A DNA stretch of 64,000 nt, taken from [Zimmermannella] bifida NBRC 103089 (lineage in GTDB: Bacteria > Actinomycetota > Actinomycetes > Actinomycetales > Microbacteriaceae). Each line of letters opens with the position of its first letter. Position 1 is the first letter of the stretch. The stretch spans positions 124,001-188,000 of the forward strand of contig NZ_BCSP01000001.1 of assembly GCF_001570925.1 (NCBI RefSeq), read 5' to 3'. Below are positions 44,986 to 55,555 of the stretch, one piece after another. The notes beneath the pieces are model-generated. The model had not been told where the DNA came from and ran no database searches. It was given only the letters and a program-made list of their open reading frames with translations. Both the position numbers and the translations under genes were made by a program.

Positions 44986-45063
44986 TGTGGACACTGACCC
45001 AGTCAGCCGTTGTCGCGGCTTGACATGGGCTCTCATTTTTTGCCCGAATCTCAGGGAGTATCA

Positions 45064-46485
45064 ATGGCAGCACGTGCATCCACCTCCACTTCGACCTACA
45101 GCGCCGAAACGCTTGCAGGTAAGACGGTCGCCGAGCTTCGCGCGATCGCTAAGGAGACGGGTCTGAAGGGCGCATCGGCGCTGCGGAAGACCGACCTCGT
45201 GGAAGCGCTTGTGGCACACACCGCATCCAGCTCGGACGCAGCACCAGCGAAGAAGTCGGCAGCGACCAAGAGCGCGTCAGCCGCACCAAAGAAGGCCGCG
45301 CCCAAGAAGACTGAGGCAGCCAAGTCCAAGTCCAAGGTCGAGGACGACGAGATCGACGAAGACGACATTGACGAGGTCGATCTCGAAGAGGTCGAGGACG
45401 AAGTCGACGAAGTCGAGAACGACGATGACCCAGATATGGGTAAGCGTGACGAGAAGAGCGAAGACCCCGAAGAAGACCAGGTCAAGGCAGAGTCGGCCGT
45501 GAAGGCTGCGGGTGCGCTTGTTCTGAAGAACACCGACGACGATGAGGCGCCCGTCTACTCGGCCCAGATCACCGGTGCGACCGCCGACCCGGTCAAGGAC
45601 TACCTGAAGCAGATCGGTAAGGTTCCGCTGCTGGACGCGGCCGAAGAGGTCGACCTGGCGATGCGAATCGAAGCTGGTCTCTACGCCGAAGACAAGCTGC
45701 TGCGCAATCCTGACTTTGACCCGAAGTTCAAGCGCGAACTCAAGTGGATTGTCCGTGACGGTCGCCGCGCTAAGAGCCACCTGCTGGGCGCCAACCTCCG
45801 TCTGGTCGTTTCGCTCGCAAAGCGTTACACGGGTCGTGGGATGCAGTTCCTCGACTTGATTCAGGAAGGTAACCTCGGTCTGATTCGCGCGGTTGAGAAG
45901 TTCGACTACACCAAGGGCTTTAAGTTCTCGACCTACGCAACCTGGTGGATTCGTCAGGCAATCACGCGCGCCATGGCCGACCAGGCCCGCACCATCCGTA
46001 TTCCGGTGCACATGGTCGAAGTCATTAACAAGCTTGCCCGTGTTCAGCGTCAGATGCTGCAGGACCTCGGCCGTGAACCAACTCCGGAAGAGCTCGCCCA
46101 CGAGCTCGACATGACCCCTGAGAAGGTCATCGAGGTTCAGAAGTACGGTCGCGAGCCCATTTCGCTGCACACCCCGCTTGGCGAAGACGGCGACTCGGAG
46201 TTCGGTGACCTCATTGAGGACACCGAAGCCGTTGTTCCCGCCGATGCCGTGAGCTTTACGATGCTGCAGCGCCAGCTCGAGTCGCTGCTCGATTCGCTGT
46301 CGGAGCGCGAAGCGGGCGTCATCCGCATGCGCTTCGGCCTCGGTGACGGTATGCCAAAGACGCTCGACCAAATCGGGGAGACCTTCGGCGTCACCCGTGA
46401 GCGCATCCGCCAGATTGAGTCGAAGACGATGGCAAAGCTGCGCCACCCATCGCGTTCACAGTCTCTGCGCGACTACCTCGAGTAA
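45064..46485 (+). CDS. sigA: primary RNA polymerase sigma factor
   Basis: 473 residues. Residues about 12-50 ([18 protein letters not shown] then [14 protein letters not shown]) look like a Rho N-terminal (SAP-like) domain; about 55-165 is a K/A- then D/E-rich low-complexity region. From about 170 on are the conserved sigma-70 regions: 1.2 ([12 protein letters not shown]), 2 ([19 protein letters not shown] and [14 protein letters not shown]), 3, and 4.2 ([17 protein letters not shown]). It directs transcription of housekeeping genes and partners with RbpA (58125-58652). ATG 45064 follows AGGGAG at 7-8 nt, so the start is secure. No terminator with T-run was seen after it. Confidence 0.96.
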
Positions 46486-46561: not shown

Positions 46562-47257
46562 TTGCAAGCTAACGAGGGAAAATCCCTGGAATCGACCGTT
46601 GACGGCATCACGTATGAACGCCTGCCAATTAAGACTCACGTAGTCATGGACGGTGATGACCTGCGCAGCTTCGTGAAGCAGTACGCGCAGGACGTCATCG
46701 AACCGGGTGACGTCCTGTTCGTCACCGAAAAGATCGTAGCGATCACGCAGGGCCGTTCCATGCTCGTGAGCGATGTCGAACCGCGCCCGCTGGCAACGTT
46801 CCTGTCGAAGTACGTAAAGAAGACGCCGTACGGCATCGGTCTTGGCATGCCAGAAACGATGGAGATGGCACTGCGCGAATGCGGTACCCCGCGCATCCTC
46901 GCTGCCGCTGGAATCTCGGTGATCTCGAAGGCGCTCGGCCGCAGCGGTGACTTCTACCGCGTGGCCGGCGAACGTGCCCGCGCCATTGACGGCCCCACCG
47001 AGGGCACCATCCCGCCATATGACGAATCGATTGTGCTCGGCCCCGAACACCCCGAGCGCGTTGCCCGCGACCTCAAGATTCTGCTCGGCAACAAGGTTGA
47101 TGTGCTCATCGTCGACATCAACGACATCGGCGGAAACATCCTCGGCTCGACCCTCGATGACGAGCTCAACGATCACTGGGTCGCCGTACTACAAGACAAT
47201 CCGCTTGGCCAGGGCGCACAATCCACGCCAATGGGCATCCTGCGCAAGAAGAACTAA
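46562..47257 (+). CDS. CofE-like (F420-0:L-glutamate ligase family) protein
   Basis: 231 residues. The fold of coenzyme F420-0:gamma-glutamyl ligases is suggested by LPIKTHVVMDGDDLRSFVKQY, GDVLFVTEKIVAITQG and VDVLIVDINDIGGNILG; these enzymes form amide bonds with GTP. No FbiB-type C-terminal nitroreductase domain is present and no other F420 gene lies nearby, so a different glutamylation target is likely. The TTG start at 46562 is supported by AGGAG 7 nt upstream. The next gene starts 29 bp downstream, so it leads a three-gene cluster with two ATP-grasp paralogues. The call as CofE-like is fairly sure; the substrate is unknown. Confidence 0.75.
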   Translation: MQANEGKSLESTVDGITYERLPIKTHVVMDGDDLRSFVKQYAQDVIEPGDVLFVTEKIVAITQGRSMLVSDVEPRPLATFLSKYVKKTPYGIGLGMPETMEMALRECGTPRILAAAGISVISKALGRSGDFYRVAGERARAIDGPTEGTIPPYDESIVLGPEHPERVARDLKILLGNKVDVLIVDINDIGGNILGSTLDDELNDHWVAVLQDNPLGQGAQSTPMGILRKKN

Positions 47258-47286
47258 TCCTTCAACGCTATTAGAAAGGCACTTGG

Positions 47287-48306
47287 ATGCGCTGGTTTAT
47301 TGCGCGAATCCGGTACGTGTTTGAACGCGCGACCAAGATCAACTTCAAGCGAATCATTGGGTTCGCTCGCCAAGCTCAACGCGTAACCCCACGCACGCCG
47401 CTGTGGATCATCATCCCGGACATGTTCTTCTGCGTCGTGCGTTACCAGACCACGTTCGAGCACTACGCGCAATGGGACTACCGTCTGCTTCGTGGTCGCG
47501 AACGCGCCACGTTCATGACCGAGCCGAAGTCGGCGATGCTTTCGCGTGCCTTCAACTCGCAGGCTAAGCGCAAGATTTTCGATGACAAGGTTGAGTTCGC
47601 CAAGGTCTTCAGCGACTGCATCGGTCGCGAGTGGATTGACCTGCGCACCGCATCCGAAACCGAAATCGCTGATTTCGTAGCGCGACACCCCAAGGTGATC
47701 GCCAAGGACCCTGAGGGTGTCGGTGGCGATGACATCAAGGTGTACAACGTGGCGGACTACGCCGATGTACAGACTTGGGCGAAGGAAGCCAAGCGTGCAC
47801 GCACGCCACTGGTTGAAGAGTTCCTGACGCAGCACCCCGAAATGTCGCGCCTGTACCCAGAAGCCGTCAACACGATGCGCATCGTGACGTATGTTGACCC
47901 TGCGAAGAAGGTGCATGTGCTCGCCCGCGTCCTCAAGATGGGTAACGGTGGCAACATCGACAACTACAGCGGTGGCGGCATGTACACGATGATGGATGAA
48001 CACGGTCACGCTCTGCACGCCGCGTACGACGGCAACGGCACCGTGTTTGAGATCCACCCGGCCACCAAGGTCCGCATCGCTGACTTCCAAGTACCGATGT
48101 TCGACGAGGTCATCGAGTTTGCGAAGAAGCTCGCAGTACGCGTTCCCGAAATGCCGTACATCGGTTGGGACATTGCGCTCACGCCTGAAGGGCCGGTGGT
48201 TATTGAAGGTAACCACAACACCGGTGTGTTCCAGACTCGCCCCGCAGTGACGGGAACCAAGGAAGGCCTGTTGCCCGTTTACCAGCGTGCAATGAAGTTC
48301 AAGTAA
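47287..48306 (+). CDS. sugar-transfer-associated ATP-grasp protein, paralogue 1
   Basis: 339 residues. The C-terminal half is an ATP-grasp domain: VNTMRIVTYVDPAKKVHVLARVL, GGGMYTMMDEHG, and GWDIALTPEGPVVIEGNHN carry the metal-binding acid and asparagine residues. The nucleotide-binding lysine lies in KVIAKDPEGVGGDD near 138-152; its glycine loop is less canonical than in paralogue 2. Proteins of this class join acidic or amino groups to sugars or amino acids; the target is not known. AGAAAGG sits 8 nt before ATG 47287. The neighbour genes are the CofE-like gene before it and paralogue 2 after it. Confidence 0.8.
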   Translation: MRWFIARIRYVFERATKINFKRIIGFARQAQRVTPRTPLWIIIPDMFFCVVRYQTTFEHYAQWDYRLLRGRERATFMTEPKSAMLSRAFNSQAKRKIFDDKVEFAKVFSDCIGREWIDLRTASETEIADFVARHPKVIAKDPEGVGGDDIKVYNVADYADVQTWAKEAKRARTPLVEEFLTQHPEMSRLYPEAVNTMRIVTYVDPAKKVHVLARVLKMGNGGNIDNYSGGGMYTMMDEHGHALHAAYDGNGTVFEIHPATKVRIADFQVPMFDEVIEFAKKLAVRVPEMPYIGWDIALTPEGPVVIEGNHNTGVFQTRPAVTGTKEGLLPVYQRAMKFK

Positions 48307-48311
48307 CCCAT

Positions 48312-49331
48312 ATGAGCAACCCAATCCTTGCAAAGCTTGCGTTCTATGCGGAGCGCGCCGCACGGCTGAGCCCCGCAAACCTCGCGGCGTTTGCCCGACA
48401 GTCCAAGCCGATTACCAGGAAACCAACGCCGGTAATCATCGCCGACATGCTGTGGTGCTCGGTCCGGCACGAGCTCGGTTTCCGCGACTACGCCATGTGG
48501 GAGTTTGCTTCGCTCAACGCACGCGAACGCAAAACCTGGATGACGCACCCCAAGTCGCACCTCATTAACGAGCGCTACAACGACGAACACGATCGCAAGC
48601 TATTCAGCGACAAGCTCGCGTTCTACCAGCGCTTTGATGATCTGCTTGGCCGTGCCTGGATCGACGCTCGTAGCGCCACGGATGCAGAGTTTGCCGCATT
48701 CATCGCCGAACATCCACAGGTCGTCGTCAAACCATTCGATGGTCACGGTGGGGCAGGGGTTGCCAAGCGTGATTTCACTGACGTAACCGACGCTGCTGCG
48801 CTTCGTGCCGAACTGCTGGCCTCGAACCAGTCGCTGGTGGAAGCCTGCATCGAACAGCACCCGGAGCTTGCCCGGCTGCATCCACAGAGCGTCAACACGA
48901 TCCGCATCATCGGGTTTAACAAGGGCAAGGGTGACTTCCGCCTGCTCGCCGCCGTGCTGCGCATCGGATGCGGCGACGCCGTCGACAACTTCGCCAGCGG
49001 CGGCATGTACACCATGCTCGACGAGCACGGCACCGCGCTGTACCCGGGCGTCAACAAGAACGGTGAAGTCTTTGCCACACACCCGCTGACGAACGAGCAG
49101 ATCGCCGGATTCCAGGTGCCGCACTTCGAAGAGATCATGACGATGCTCGAAGACGCGGCCAGCCGCATCCCGTCGGTACCGTACGTTGGCTGGGACGTGG
49201 CGGTAACCGAGCACGGGCCACTGATCATCGAAGGCAACCACAACTCGAGCGTCTTCCAGGCAAAACCCTCGGTTTCGGGGTCGAAGATCGGATTGCTGCC
49301 GCACTACCAGCGACAGATCAACGGTGCCTAG
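48312..49331 (+). CDS. sugar-transfer-associated ATP-grasp protein, paralogue 2
   Basis: 339 residues, the same length as paralogue 1 and clearly homologous along its whole length. The ATP-grasp features are fuller: VVVKPFDGHGGAGV near 137-150 (lysine and glycine loop), VNTIRIIGFNKG, SGGMYTMLDEHG and GWDVAVTEHGPLIIEGNHN. It starts 5 bp after paralogue 1 stops, so translation is probably coupled. Pairing of one canonical and one slightly divergent copy suggests a heteromer or two sequential ligations; this is inference. A hairpin 73 bp downstream closes the cluster. Confidence 0.82.
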   Translation: MSNPILAKLAFYAERAARLSPANLAAFARQSKPITRKPTPVIIADMLWCSVRHELGFRDYAMWEFASLNARERKTWMTHPKSHLINERYNDEHDRKLFSDKLAFYQRFDDLLGRAWIDARSATDAEFAAFIAEHPQVVVKPFDGHGGAGVAKRDFTDVTDAAALRAELLASNQSLVEACIEQHPELARLHPQSVNTIRIIGFNKGKGDFRLLAAVLRIGCGDAVDNFASGGMYTMLDEHGTALYPGVNKNGEVFATHPLTNEQIAGFQVPHFEEIMTMLEDAASRIPSVPYVGWDVAVTEHGPLIIEGNHNSSVFQAKPSVSGSKIGLLPHYQRQINGA

Positions 49332-49448: not shown

Positions 49449-49483
49449 AGGCCTCCTAGAATTGCCAAGATTCAAGGAGGCCT
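49449..49483 (+). promoter_or_regulatory. hairpin covering the parE ribosome binding site
   Basis: AGGCCTCCT (49449-49457) is exactly complementary to AGGAGGCCT (49475-49483), which contains the parE Shine-Dalgarno sequence. The loop is 17 nt. If both arms are in the mRNA, the hairpin hides the ribosome site and would lower or control translation of parE. Confidence 0.55.
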
Positions 49484-49488
49484 TCTGC

Positions 49489-51618
49489 ATGTCAGCTACC
49501 ACCCCCGGTGCCAAGACGACCGTTAAGGAAACCGGAGCGGATTCGTACAACGCCGACAACCTGCAAGTACTTGAAGGGCTTGAAGCCGTTCGCAAACGCC
49601 CCGGCATGTACATCGGTTCCACCGACTCGCGTGGCCTCATGCACTGCCTGTGGGAAATCATCGACAACTCGGTCGATGAAGCACTCGGCGGCCACGGTGA
49701 GCGCATCGAAATTATCCTGCACCCCGATCACTCAGTAGAGGTCCGCGACAACGGCCGCGGTGTGCCCACCGATATCGAGCCAAGAACGGGTTGGACCGGC
49801 GTTCAGGTGGTCTACACGAAGCTGCACGCGGGTGGAAAGTTTGGTGGTAGCAACTACGGCGCAGCCGGTGGTCTGCACGGTGTTGGCGCCTCGGTTGTCA
49901 ACGCGCTGTCGTCGCGAATGGACGTTGAAGTTGATCGCGGTGGTGCCACCTATGCCATGAGCTTCCAGCGTGGCCACGCGGGCGTGTTCGATGACAAATC
50001 CGGAACCCCATCGCCGGACGCATCGTTCACCCCTGAGCCAGGCAAAGCAACGTTGCGCAAGATTGGTAAGGCCAAGCGCGGCGTTACTGGTACGCGTGTG
50101 CGGTACTGGGCCGACCCGCAGGTGTTTGTACGGGATGCGGATTTTCAGCTCGACAAGCTCCGCGACCGCGCTCGCCAAACGGCGTTTCTCGTGCCGGGTT
50201 TGGAGATTTCGCTCAGCGACAACCGGGGGAGTGAACCGGTTGCGGAGTCGTTCAAGTACGACGGCGGCATCTCAGAGTTTGTTGAGTTCCTGGCGCCCGA
50301 TCAGGCACTGACCGATACCTGGCGGCTTCAGGGCGAAGGCGCCTACACCGAGACGATCCCAGTGCTCGATGAAGCGACCGGTCACATGGTTTCACGCGAA
50401 GTCGATCGCAACATGGAAGTGGATCTCGCCCTTCGCTGGGGTGGGGGATACGACACCACACTGCGCAGCTTCGTGAACATCATCGCCACACCCAAGGGCG
50501 GAACCCACCAGGCCGGTTTCGAAGCCGGACTCATCAAGGTCGTACGCGACGAGGTCACGAAGAACGCACGGAAGCTCAAGGCTGGCAATGACAAGCTCGA
50601 GAAGGACGACGTACTTGCCGGGCTGACCGCGGTCGTAACCGTCCGCATCCCTGAACCGCAGTTTGAGGGACAGACCAAAGAAGTCCTCGGTACGCCGCAG
50701 GCACGCGCCATTGTGCAGCGCACCATCGTCAACGGCATGAAGGAACGTTTCAGCAGCACGAAGCGACAGGACAAGACCGAGACTTCGCTGCTGCTCGAGA
50801 AGATCGTCACCGAGATGAAGAGCCGCATCGCGGCGCGCGCCCACAAAGAGACGCAGCGGCGCAAGAACGCGCTCGAGAATTCATCCCTGCCGGCCAAGCT
50901 CGTCGACTGCCGCACTAACGAGGTCGAGCGTTCTGAACTGTTCATCGTTGAGGGTGACTCGGCACTCGGTACGGCGAAGCCAGCGCGCGATTCGGAGTAC
51001 CAAGCGTTGTTCCCCATCCGAGGCAAGATTCTTAACGTGCAGAAGGCCTCTCTTGCCGACATGTTGAAGAACGCCGAGTGCGCGAACATCATTCAGGTAC
51101 TGGGTGCCGGTTCGGGGCGTAGCTTTGACCTCTCGGCAGCACGTTACGGCAAGGTGATCATCATGTCGGATGCGGATGTCGACGGTGCGCACATCCGCAC
51201 GCTGCTGCTCACGCTGTTCTTCCGATACATGCGACCGATGCTCGAGGCCGGGCGCGTGTACGCCGCAGTACCGCCGCTGCACCGCGTTGTCGTGCTCAAC
51301 CCCGGCAAGAAGGCCAACGAGACGATCTACACCTATTCTGAGGCCGAGCTGCAGAAGCTGCTGAAGAAGCTCGAACGTGCCGGTAAGAAGTACCAGGACC
51401 CAATCCAGCGCTACAAGGGTCTGGGTGAGATGGATGAAGACCAGCTGTGGGAGACAACCATGAACCCGCAGGCTCGACTGCTACGCCGAATGAACCTGCA
51501 GGACGCCGCTGAGGCAGAGAAGGTCTTTGAAGTACTCATGGGTAATGAGGTAGCCCCTCGTCGCGAGTTCATTGTCGAGGGCGCCCAGCACGTCGTGCCG
51601 CAGCTCATCGACGCCTAA
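49489..51618 (+). CDS. parE: type IIA DNA topoisomerase ATPase subunit (topoisomerase IV subunit B, ParE-like)
   Basis: 709 residues. It supplies the ATPase of topoisomerase IV, which separates linked chromosomes. The GHKL domain shows EIIDNSVDEALGG and GGLHGVGASVVNALS; the TOPRIM domain shows VEGDSALGTAK, the ALG form seen in ParE rather than the AGG of GyrB, and DADVDGAHIRTLLL. The ending is short as in ParE. ATG 49489 follows a perfect AAGGAGG at 49474-49480, so the start is sure. That ribosome site lies in an inverted repeat. ParC is not in the window. Confidence 0.9.
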   Translation: MSATTPGAKTTVKETGADSYNADNLQVLEGLEAVRKRPGMYIGSTDSRGLMHCLWEIIDNSVDEALGGHGERIEIILHPDHSVEVRDNGRGVPTDIEPRTGWTGVQVVYTKLHAGGKFGGSNYGAAGGLHGVGASVVNALSSRMDVEVDRGGATYAMSFQRGHAGVFDDKSGTPSPDASFTPEPGKATLRKIGKAKRGVTGTRVRYWADPQVFVRDADFQLDKLRDRARQTAFLVPGLEISLSDNRGSEPVAESFKYDGGISEFVEFLAPDQALTDTWRLQGEGAYTETIPVLDEATGHMVSREVDRNMEVDLALRWGGGYDTTLRSFVNIIATPKGGTHQAGFEAGLIKVVRDEVTKNARKLKAGNDKLEKDDVLAGLTAVVTVRIPEPQFEGQTKEVLGTPQARAIVQRTIVNGMKERFSSTKRQDKTETSLLLEKIVTEMKSRIAARAHKETQRRKNALENSSLPAKLVDCRTNEVERSELFIVEGDSALGTAKPARDSEYQALFPIRGKILNVQKASLADMLKNAECANIIQVLGAGSGRSFDLSAARYGKVIIMSDADVDGAHIRTLLLTLFFRYMRPMLEAGRVYAAVPPLHRVVVLNPGKKANETIYTYSEAELQKLLKKLERAGKKYQDPIQRYKGLGEMDEDQLWETTMNPQARLLRRMNLQDAAEAEKVFEVLMGNEVAPRREFIVEGAQHVVPQLIDA

Positions 51619-53364: not shown

Positions 53365-53370
53365 TAAAAT
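53365..53370 (+). promoter_or_regulatory. candidate -10 box giving a leaderless surface-protein mRNA
   Basis: TAAAAT at 53365-53370 matches a -10 box. A start about 7 bases downstream would fall at 53376-53378, on or next to ATG 53378. No ribosome site precedes that ATG. No clear -35 was found. Confidence 0.4.
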
Positions 53371-53377
53371 GTGTTTT

Positions 53378-55555
53378 ATGGCCACGAATTTCAGTACTGT
53401 GCGGTCCTTGACGTCACGTTGGCGTACGCTTTTGACCGCGGCCCTTGCCAGCGCCCTAGTTGCGTCTGCTGTCACGCTTCCGCCAAGCCAGGCATTCGCT
53501 GGCACTGCGGAGACCTACCCAGACGAACCTGCGACCGAGACCATTGCGGTTGAGGACGGCAACCATTTCTTGCCTGACCATGCTGACTACCTGATTCGTT
53601 TCGACGACGGTAACAACCACGGTGCCGAGTATGCTCCCGAGATTCGCGACATGATTCAGCGCGAAGGCCAGGACATCCTCATCACCACGAATAGCGGCAA
53701 AGTCGTGAACTTGAGCTGGACATTCAACGACATGCGTAACGCTTGGCTCGCCAAGAAAGACTCTCCGGAAGAGTCAGAAGCCGTACGTACGGCGCTCAAT
53801 GATCAGCGATACACGTCGTTCTTCAATCCCACCAGAACTCAGGGGACTACTGGACTTGGGATCATTGACTTCGTGCTCCGTGAAGACAACCAAACGGGAG
53901 ACCTGAATCTCGTCATTCCATTCGCGGGGTCCTGGCGAAACACGGGATTCAACCCGGGCGACACGCTATATCGATCAGTGAAGTTCCACGTAAATGATGG
54001 CGCCGCACCCATCGTAAGTCGAGCGGATGTTGCAATGTTCGTGTTTGAACTGCCGGTCGTCAAGGGTGCAAATGGCGACTGGCAAGCAAGCAACCAGTAT
54101 CGCTACGGGGAGCTTCGAGATCTCGTCATTGATGGCACACCATCACCGGTCTTCGACTCGCGCGAGTCACAAATCACCGTCGATGCCGCTGGTAAAGAGT
54201 CGGCGGTGTGGCAGAACTTCTATAACCGTTCGACAGATGGCGACCACTTTACCCGGCACTTCCAATTTGCCTACGATGTGCCAAAGGACCAGCTTGTACA
54301 GGTGCAGTTCCGTAACAACTTCCGCACCACCGGAATATCCAACTCCGCCACAACGGTATTTACCCGGCAACAGTTTGAGCGAATCCCGCAGGTTGAAGTG
54401 CACCACGTACTGGACAAGAACTATCGAGAACTGATGGGTTACGAACCCACTGCGGCATTGTTGACCCGACCAAACAAGGTTGCGCTTGACCGTAATGCGG
54501 ATGCTGCCGCACCACGTCAGCAGCGTGTTGGTTATTTGCCATTGGGAATCGATGAACTCGCGCCGTCCGTTGAGGCGTACAACCTCCAGGGCCTACGCGT
54601 TTCGCCCGACAGTCCGTTTGAACAGCGGCTCATGAACCACGATTTTCCAAATTACCCAATCTCGCCGACATCCGAGGAATGGGCCAACTCGCTCAACGCG
54701 ACCGTGCCGGGATATGTATTTGTCGATGACGATCTACCAGACGACACGAACCTTACATACACATATTTGCCCGACCCCGTAACTGGTGAAGTACTGCTGC
54801 GCCAACACCTCTACCGCACCTATCGCTCGATCCCCGGGGCAGTTGAAATTGCCAAGTCGGACGCCGCCACTGAAGCTGCACTTGCGGGGGCAGAGTTCGA
54901 ACTATGGTCCGCTGACCACACCACAAAACTGACAGAGGCGACCTTCACCACCGACGCATCCGGAAAGGTACGTCTCTACAACGGTGACCTGGCTGCACTA
55001 GCGGACGATGAATCCGTACGTCAGTTGCCGCAGGCGGACAGCCACGGCATCATCGTCACTGAAAATGGTCTGCTTCTCGAGCCGGGTTCCTACTCACTCC
55101 GAGAGGTGACCGTGCCAGAAGGATACGAGACTCCGTCCGAGCAAGCAGCTTTCACGGATTTTACCGTTGCCAAACGTGCCACCGAGCAAGAACGCATCAG
55201 CGCCGTTTCAGTCGGCGTGACGAACACTCCTGTGCCGGGGCCAAGCGAGCCTGAGCCAAGCGAGCCTGAGCCAAGCCCGCCAGGACCTAGCGAATCGACA
55301 CCGAGCGAATCGACACCGAGCGAGACGACACCGAGCGAGACGACACCGAGCGAGACGACACCGGCTACGCCTGAAACCCCCGGCGACGAAACTGTTTCCC
55401 CAGTGCCAATCCCAGCATCGCCCGAGCCAGCTGCTGGACTCGCTGCCACAGGTAATACCCCTGAGCCCGTATTCATCGGAGCACTGGCAACACTCGCTGC
55501 AGGCCTTGCGCTGTTGATGACGACTCGACGTCGAAATGCTAACAACCTCGACTAG
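53378..55555 (+). CDS. LAXTG-type cell-wall-anchored surface protein with SpaA-like domain
   Basis: 725 residues. A signal peptide covers about 1-42 (basic start, hydrophobic core, then AFAGTAET). Residues 43-490 are a large extracellular region without a family I can name. Around 490-610 lies a SpaA/Cna-B-like domain (VEIAKSDAATEAALAGAEFELWSAD, shown in part as AGAEFELWS), followed by PSE/PST repeats at about 620-665. The C-terminus has LAATG, a hydrophobic helix and RRR: a sortase sorting signal of the LAXTG (class E type) form. No sortase gene is in the window. ATG 53378 is preferred over ATG 53369, which overlaps the -10 box. Composition is less GC-rich than the neighbours. Confidence 0.82.
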   Translation: MATNFSTVRSLTSRWRTLLTAALASALVASAVTLPPSQAFAGTAETYPDEPATETIAVEDGNHFLPDHADYLIRFDDGNNHGAEYAPEIRDMIQREGQDILITTNSGKVVNLSWTFNDMRNAWLAKKDSPEESEAVRTALNDQRYTSFFNPTRTQGTTGLGIIDFVLREDNQTGDLNLVIPFAGSWRNTGFNPGDTLYRSVKFHVNDGAAPIVSRADVAMFVFELPVVKGANGDWQASNQYRYGELRDLVIDGTPSPVFDSRESQITVDAAGKESAVWQNFYNRSTDGDHFTRHFQFAYDVPKDQLVQVQFRNNFRTTGISNSATTVFTRQQFERIPQVEVHHVLDKNYRELMGYEPTAALLTRPNKVALDRNADAAAPRQQRVGYLPLGIDELAPSVEAYNLQGLRVSPDSPFEQRLMNHDFPNYPISPTSEEWANSLNATVPGYVFVDDDLPDDTNLTYTYLPDPVTGEVLLRQHLYRTYRSIPGAVEIAKSDAATEAALAGAEFELWSADHTTKLTEATFTTDASGKVRLYNGDLAALADDESVRQLPQADSHGIIVTENGLLLEPGSYSLREVTVPEGYETPSEQAAFTDFTVAKRATEQERISAVSVGVTNTPVPGPSEPEPSEPEPSPPGPSESTPSESTPSETTPSETTPSETTPATPETPGDETVSPVPIPASPEPAAGLAATGNTPEPVFIGALATLAAGLALLMTTRRRNANNLD

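Follow-up and report, generated by a model that had tools for sequence, protein, structure and literature searches.

Group-B cell walls, catalogued since the 1970s, are cross-linked from the D-Glu at position 2 rather than from the diamino acid at position 3, and their bridge uses the same D-Glu carboxyl that is amidated by MurT-GatD. In the literature searched, no paper was found that names the ligases making group-B cross-bridges. The closest described systems are MurT-GatD, the lipid II isoglutaminyl synthase, in which a Mur ligase works with a glutaminase partner (PMC3266927, PMC6113224), the peptidoglycan amidotransferase AsnB/LtsA (PMC8554201, PMC7920481), the F420-0:glutamate ligase CofE and the N-domain of FbiB (TIGR01916; PDB 2phn, 7uld), and the RimK/LysX ATP-grasp peptide ligases.

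The locus described here lies in a 64,000-nucleotide stretch of the [Zimmermannella] bifida genome ("the window", meaning the whole stretch of DNA analysed). Its edges are sigA on the left (45010..46485) and parE on the right (49462..51618), both on the + strand and both outside the system. The slot between them holds three ORFs, also on the + strand: one encoding a CofE-fold amide ligase, our candidate MurT-GatD replacement (46562..47257; 231 aa, TTG start; PF01996), followed by ag1 (47287..48306) and ag2 (48312..49331), which encode two ATPgrasp_ST ligases (PF14397) of 339 aa each. By ORF coordinates, 29 bases separate the CofE-like gene from ag1 and 5 bases separate ag1 from ag2, and a whole-genome search of the 2.13 Mb genome returned these three genes as its sole PF01996 match and its sole two PF14397 matches. 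A first-pass annotation had described three tightly spaced genes, one for a CofE-fold protein and two for ATP-grasp paralogues, and the ORFs, the Pfam scores and the 43% identity between the paralogues (over 333 aa) confirm that description. We consider it reasonably likely that the sigA-parE genes are one version of a Microbacteriaceae cell-wall cassette, in which a CofE-fold ligase has replaced MurT-GatD in place and would serve in bridge formation. The window cassette contains neither a racemase nor an EctB gene, and no neighbouring gene pointed to a defence, natural product or phage context. Further along the window, the product of 53369-55555 is large and secreted, and its C-terminus carries a LAATGN-like sorting motif and a transmembrane tail; it is probably anchored at the cell surface by a sortase.

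The CofE-like protein scores 46.8 bits against PF01996 (F420_ligase), above the Pfam gathering cut-off of 25, and its nearest named relatives (75-76%) are from Gulosibacter sediminis and G. chungangensis, which places the window in a Gulosibacter-like member of the Microbacteriaceae. The best PDB match of its AlphaFold2 model (pLDDT 85.9) was Archaeoglobus fulgidus CofE (2phn; Z 15.0, 3.2 A, 182 residues aligned), with no other clear match and the next rows at Z 4, and Foldseek placed the model on the CofE fold at E 1.3e-10. As modelled, then, the 231-aa protein has a CofE fold. Its likeness to CofE and the FbiB N-domain consists of this fold and of membership in the amide-forming PF01996, but identity is only about 20%. 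The strongly conserved motifs of the family are its own (SEKIVAITQGRS, GIGLGxPxTM, GxFY, IDGPT, DxNDxGxNxLG and DNPLGQ..TP), and GIGLGxPxTM, IDGPT, DxNDxGxNxLG and DNPLGQ set its C-terminal half apart from CofE. Pfam and NCBIfam-type profile searches gave no match to the MurT or GatD families.

In relatives, the usual ligase of this slot is a divergent MurT-GatD pair, and in other species the place of that pair is taken exactly by the CofE-like gene. The order sigA-murT-gatD was found in 23/23 examined MurT loci, among which sigA-murT-gatD-parE is the common family arrangement, and in three ATP-grasp loci that have no CofE-like gene, murT-gatD sits between sigA and the ATP-grasp gene. Across 120 Microbacteriaceae genomes, MurT was present in 97 and the CofE-like gene in 18, with both in one (where they are adjacent) and neither in six; MurT was counted with a sensitive profile, setting aside partial matches of about 1e-13 in G249 and G336 as other Mur ligases, and five weak partial CofE-like matches were likewise set aside. 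Among 396 genomes of the order, 138 had MurT_C and 55 the CofE-like domain, after exclusion of three weak partial matches to the latter, with an overlap of 0. The six genomes with neither enzyme and those with both weigh against the proposal. The same slot, the near-complete exclusion, the company of wall genes described below and the CofE fold together argue that the CofE-like protein replaces MurT-GatD, and it very probably acts as a ligase on peptidoglycan precursors in the stead of that pair. It would be a nucleotide-dependent amide ligase in place of a two-protein lipid II ligase, sharing with MurT an ATP-dependent activation of a stem-peptide carboxyl, but carried out by an unrelated fold and, here, with no partner glutaminase. 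By analogy with MurT, the target is likely to be D-Glu, the second residue of the lipid II stem, whose alpha-carboxyl would be activated and joined to an amine.

The GatD proteins of the slot bear on the nature of that amine. In the sigA-linked GatDs (about 10 distinct, alignable), the catalytic Cys of ICGLYQLFG is replaced (THNALE, VSGGMQ, IAGGWQ, IGGGME) and the His of YLHG is also gone in most; unlinked canonical copies keep both residues. Since C94S or C94G abolishes amidation by S. aureus GatD (PMC6113224), glutamine-derived ammonia is unlikely for the slot enzyme, and judging by these residues the slot MurT-GatD probably does not use it. Members of the Microbacteriaceae have group-B walls (PMC10978784); a partial hydrolysate of the Rhodoluna lacicola wall contained D-Ala-D-Dab together with Gly-D-Glu, a hallmark of this wall type (PMC4156110), and Gulosibacter walls contain diaminobutyrate or D-ornithine (PMC6113628), the former matching a diaminobutyrate transaminase encoded in the G. 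chungangensis cassette. The amine in this family may be an amino acid, in which case the step would start the group-B (2-4) cross-bridge. As a hypothesis we give this about an even chance; it is opposed by approximately 12 Microbacteriaceae genomes whose only MurT-GatD is canonical, Cys-intact and away from sigA, so that replacement of plain amidation is possible as well.

Outside the slot, an AsnB-type glutamine-dependent enzyme of other Actinomycetota carries the CofE-like domain at its C-terminus (five families) or has it encoded by the next gene. In a rival reading, the CofE-like protein does the ordinary job of MurT-GatD, amidating the D-Glu of lipid II with ammonia, while the ATP-grasp proteins act separately on a wall precursor. 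Canonical MurT-GatD is precisely what the AsnB-CofE genomes of three families (f6, f12 and f18) are missing, and AsnB, which keeps both the glutaminase Cys and the PP-loop in about 34/44 fusions, could supply the ammonia. We nevertheless judge plain amidation unlikely, because the displaced Microbacteriaceae GatD is itself glutaminase-dead, no glutaminase accompanies the free-standing CofE-like protein, and in about 10/44 fusions CofE is retained although both AsnB sites are gone; furthermore, group-B walls use the same carboxyl for their bridge. The window cassette also differs from AsnB/LtsA in having no AsnB gene. The AsnB-dead fusions fall in two families (L048 3711-6200, L330, L322, L335, L324, L051, L339, L342, L345 and L346), and in them AsnB has lost its N-terminal glutaminase Cys and its SGGLDSS loop, whereas the CofE domain is conserved. 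More distant CofE-like genes in other Actinomycetota directly precede a class-III aminotransferase or an Orn/Lys/Arg decarboxylase (L188 7576-8943, L195 7297-8826).

The gene content of the sigA-parE interval was counted in 80 named CofE loci. SigA precedes the CofE-like gene in 80/80, parE forms the right edge in most relatives whose stretch extends that far, and at least one ATPgrasp_ST gene, mostly convergent, lies in the interval in 77/80. An alanine-racemase-like gene is present in 55/80 and the lipid II flippase MurJ in 5/80, the MurJ of L217 scoring above the TIGR01695 (NCBIfam) cut-off. Three cassettes (L085, L086 and L221) carry a diaminobutyrate transaminase, that of G. chungangensis (L085) reaching 594 bits against a cut-off of 552. 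Beyond these cassettes, MurJ is a neighbour of the CofE-like gene in four more genomes (Pfam 246-302 bits) and in another one by tblastn, and in L187, from a different class within the phylum that we read as Coriobacteriia, a MurT-GatD fusion precedes the CofE-like gene. Its gene content marks the sigA-parE interval as a cell-wall cassette of the Microbacteriaceae.

These counts bear on several earlier proposals. The linkage and stable chromosomal role suggested by the first-pass annotation extend to relatives, where the genes are linked too, and its suggestion of bond-forming ligases, with an envelope polymer among its guesses, appears from the sequences to have been well placed. Its unique three-ligase pathway did not survive, as most relatives carry one ATP-grasp gene, on the opposite strand, and stepwise glutamylation seems less likely, since the racemase, MurJ, diaminobutyrate transaminase and AsnB fusions point to peptidoglycan precursors instead. 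Overall, that interpretation is supported in part: the genes are a linked group of ligases unrelated to F420, but the CofE-like gene can be exchanged for murT-gatD at one and the same position. An alanine racemase as constant partner was also rejected, given its 55/80 occurrence and its absence from the window cassette; racemase-fold proteins encoded elsewhere in this genome were assigned at the level of Pfam.

In Microbacterium, the racemase-like gene may vary with wall chemistry. It is present in the D-ornithine species M. testaceum, M. galbinum and M. oxydans and absent in the L-lysine M. enclense type strain, M. kunmingense and M. saccharophilum (wall types from PMC10757982 and PMC10978784). 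The pattern fits 10/12 genomes (p 0.06, with n small), the exceptions being M. radiodurans and a strain labelled M. schleiferi. For M. arborescens, one of the 12, we assume the wall type from its clade. The one racemase-like gene scored, in the Microbacterium locus L035, scores below the alr equivalog cut-off. In G. chungangensis, the ATP-grasp gene is followed by two alanine-racemase-like genes in a row (L085 9175-10973); the match of the second is mostly to the C-terminal half of the profile, and the protein may therefore be split. Two further loci are of note for their labels: a contig in the Stenotrophomonas maltophilia P13 assembly carries a Microbacterium-like sigA-cofE-ATPgrasp-parE order (L129), probably through assembly contamination, and two genomes both labelled M. 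enclense have wholly different cassettes (MurJ, two ATP-grasp genes and a racemase in L087, none in L097), suggesting a misnamed strain.

The envelope setting, and the naming of PF14397 ATPgrasp_ST after sugar-transfer loci, would also suit a cassette that links amino acids to an envelope glycopolymer, in the manner of a teichuronopeptide, rather than to peptidoglycan. We find this improbable: no glycosyltransferase was seen in the sigA-parE intervals examined, the swap partner MurT-GatD and the neighbours AsnB, MurT-GatD and MurJ are peptidoglycan genes, and the TupA ATP-grasp family of teichuronopeptide synthesis (PF14305) gave no match at E<=1.

A further concern is that the exclusion between the CofE-like gene and MurT could reflect a common location and ancestry of functionally unrelated genes, as one slot can take one insert and the Fisher values (9e-15 for the 120 genomes and 7e-12 for the 396) come from genomes that share ancestry and are not independent. 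For that reason the switches within genera make the better argument, and both states occur within at least seven genera (g2, g3, g18, g73, g115, g117 and g121). Moreover, in families f6, f12 and f18 the AsnB-fused CofE-like domain lies away from the sigA slot and its overlap with MurT is still 0, so a shared slot cannot explain the exclusion there, and the genomes that have both (G445 and the Coriobacteriia L187) place them side by side. The chance that the exclusion arose in this way therefore seems slim. Synthesis of a cofactor tail (F420 or a related poly-glutamate), to which the fold and weak CofE similarity might point, is very hard to sustain, given a score of 28.8 bits against the CofE equivalog TIGR01916 (cut-off 180.65), 0 matches to CofD (PF01933) in the whole 2.13 Mb genome (controls positive in 10/14), and CofE-like genes that adjoin wall genes across the phylum. 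The earlier view that there is no F420 system here is thus upheld: the absence of CofD argues against an ordinary F420 pathway in this genome, a further difference from CofE and FbiB, and none is completed by genes elsewhere.

The two ATP-grasp proteins match PF14397 at 162.6 bits (ag1) and 168.4 bits (ag2), against a gathering cut-off of 31.4, as do 43/43 relatives; a literature search on PF14397 found no paper. The AlphaFold2 model of ag2 (pLDDT 93.3) has an ATP-grasp fold whose nearest solved structures are LysX/RimK (Z 13.7-13.0), with D-Ala-D-Ala ligases close behind; it is set apart from RimK/LysX by its sequence family and by about 80 additional residues that form a helical N-terminus. 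The first paralogue does differ at its ATP loop (KVIAKDPEGVGGDD), as had been remarked, but this is no sign of loss, because the same loop is variable throughout the whole family and the residues invariant in 43 homologues (e.g. K140, R198, D295, E307 and N309 in ag2 numbering), nucleotide-binding residues included, are kept in both proteins. A degenerate ag1 was accordingly rejected, and from these alignments neither copy looks dead. A species-local duplication was rejected as well, since the two fall in separate clades, each common to the tandem of six Microbacterium genomes that have cofE-ag1-ag2 on one strand (M. saccharophilum, M. radiodurans, M. oleivorans, M. arborescens and two more species): ag1 groups with the first ATP-grasp gene of this co-directional arrangement, and ag2 with the second and with L134/L159-type copies. 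G. sediminis and G. chungangensis have a single, convergent copy. Pairs of diverged ATPgrasp_ST-like genes also occur in another setting in two Microbacteriaceae genomes (L215 7277-10073 in G443 and L216 7349-10151 in G408), one gene lying within a very long ORF.

Within the Microbacteriaceae set, ATPgrasp_ST is present in 15/18 CofE genomes and 6/97 MurT genomes. It is missing from 3/80 CofE loci and from most MurT loci, so not all group-B walls can require it. What ag1 and ag2 do is the least secure part of our proposal: their fold predicts ligases and their linkage connects them with the cassette, yet some species manage without them. They may add or connect further bridge residues, to which the racemase-like and diaminobutyrate-transaminase genes of relatives might contribute a D-diamino acid.

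In its fullest form, to which we give somewhat under even odds, the model has two unrelated enzymes, MurT-GatD and the CofE-fold ligase, acting on the D-Glu carboxyl of lipid II, with the sigA-parE cassette in either version, its glutaminase lost, building group-B bridges. If the replacement holds, the protein annotated as an F420 enzyme in many Actinomycetota genomes would be a wall enzyme. MurT-GatD is a proposed drug target, and it would then be open to bypass by an unrelated protein. The same finding could help explain how Microbacteriaceae build their unusual wall cross-links.
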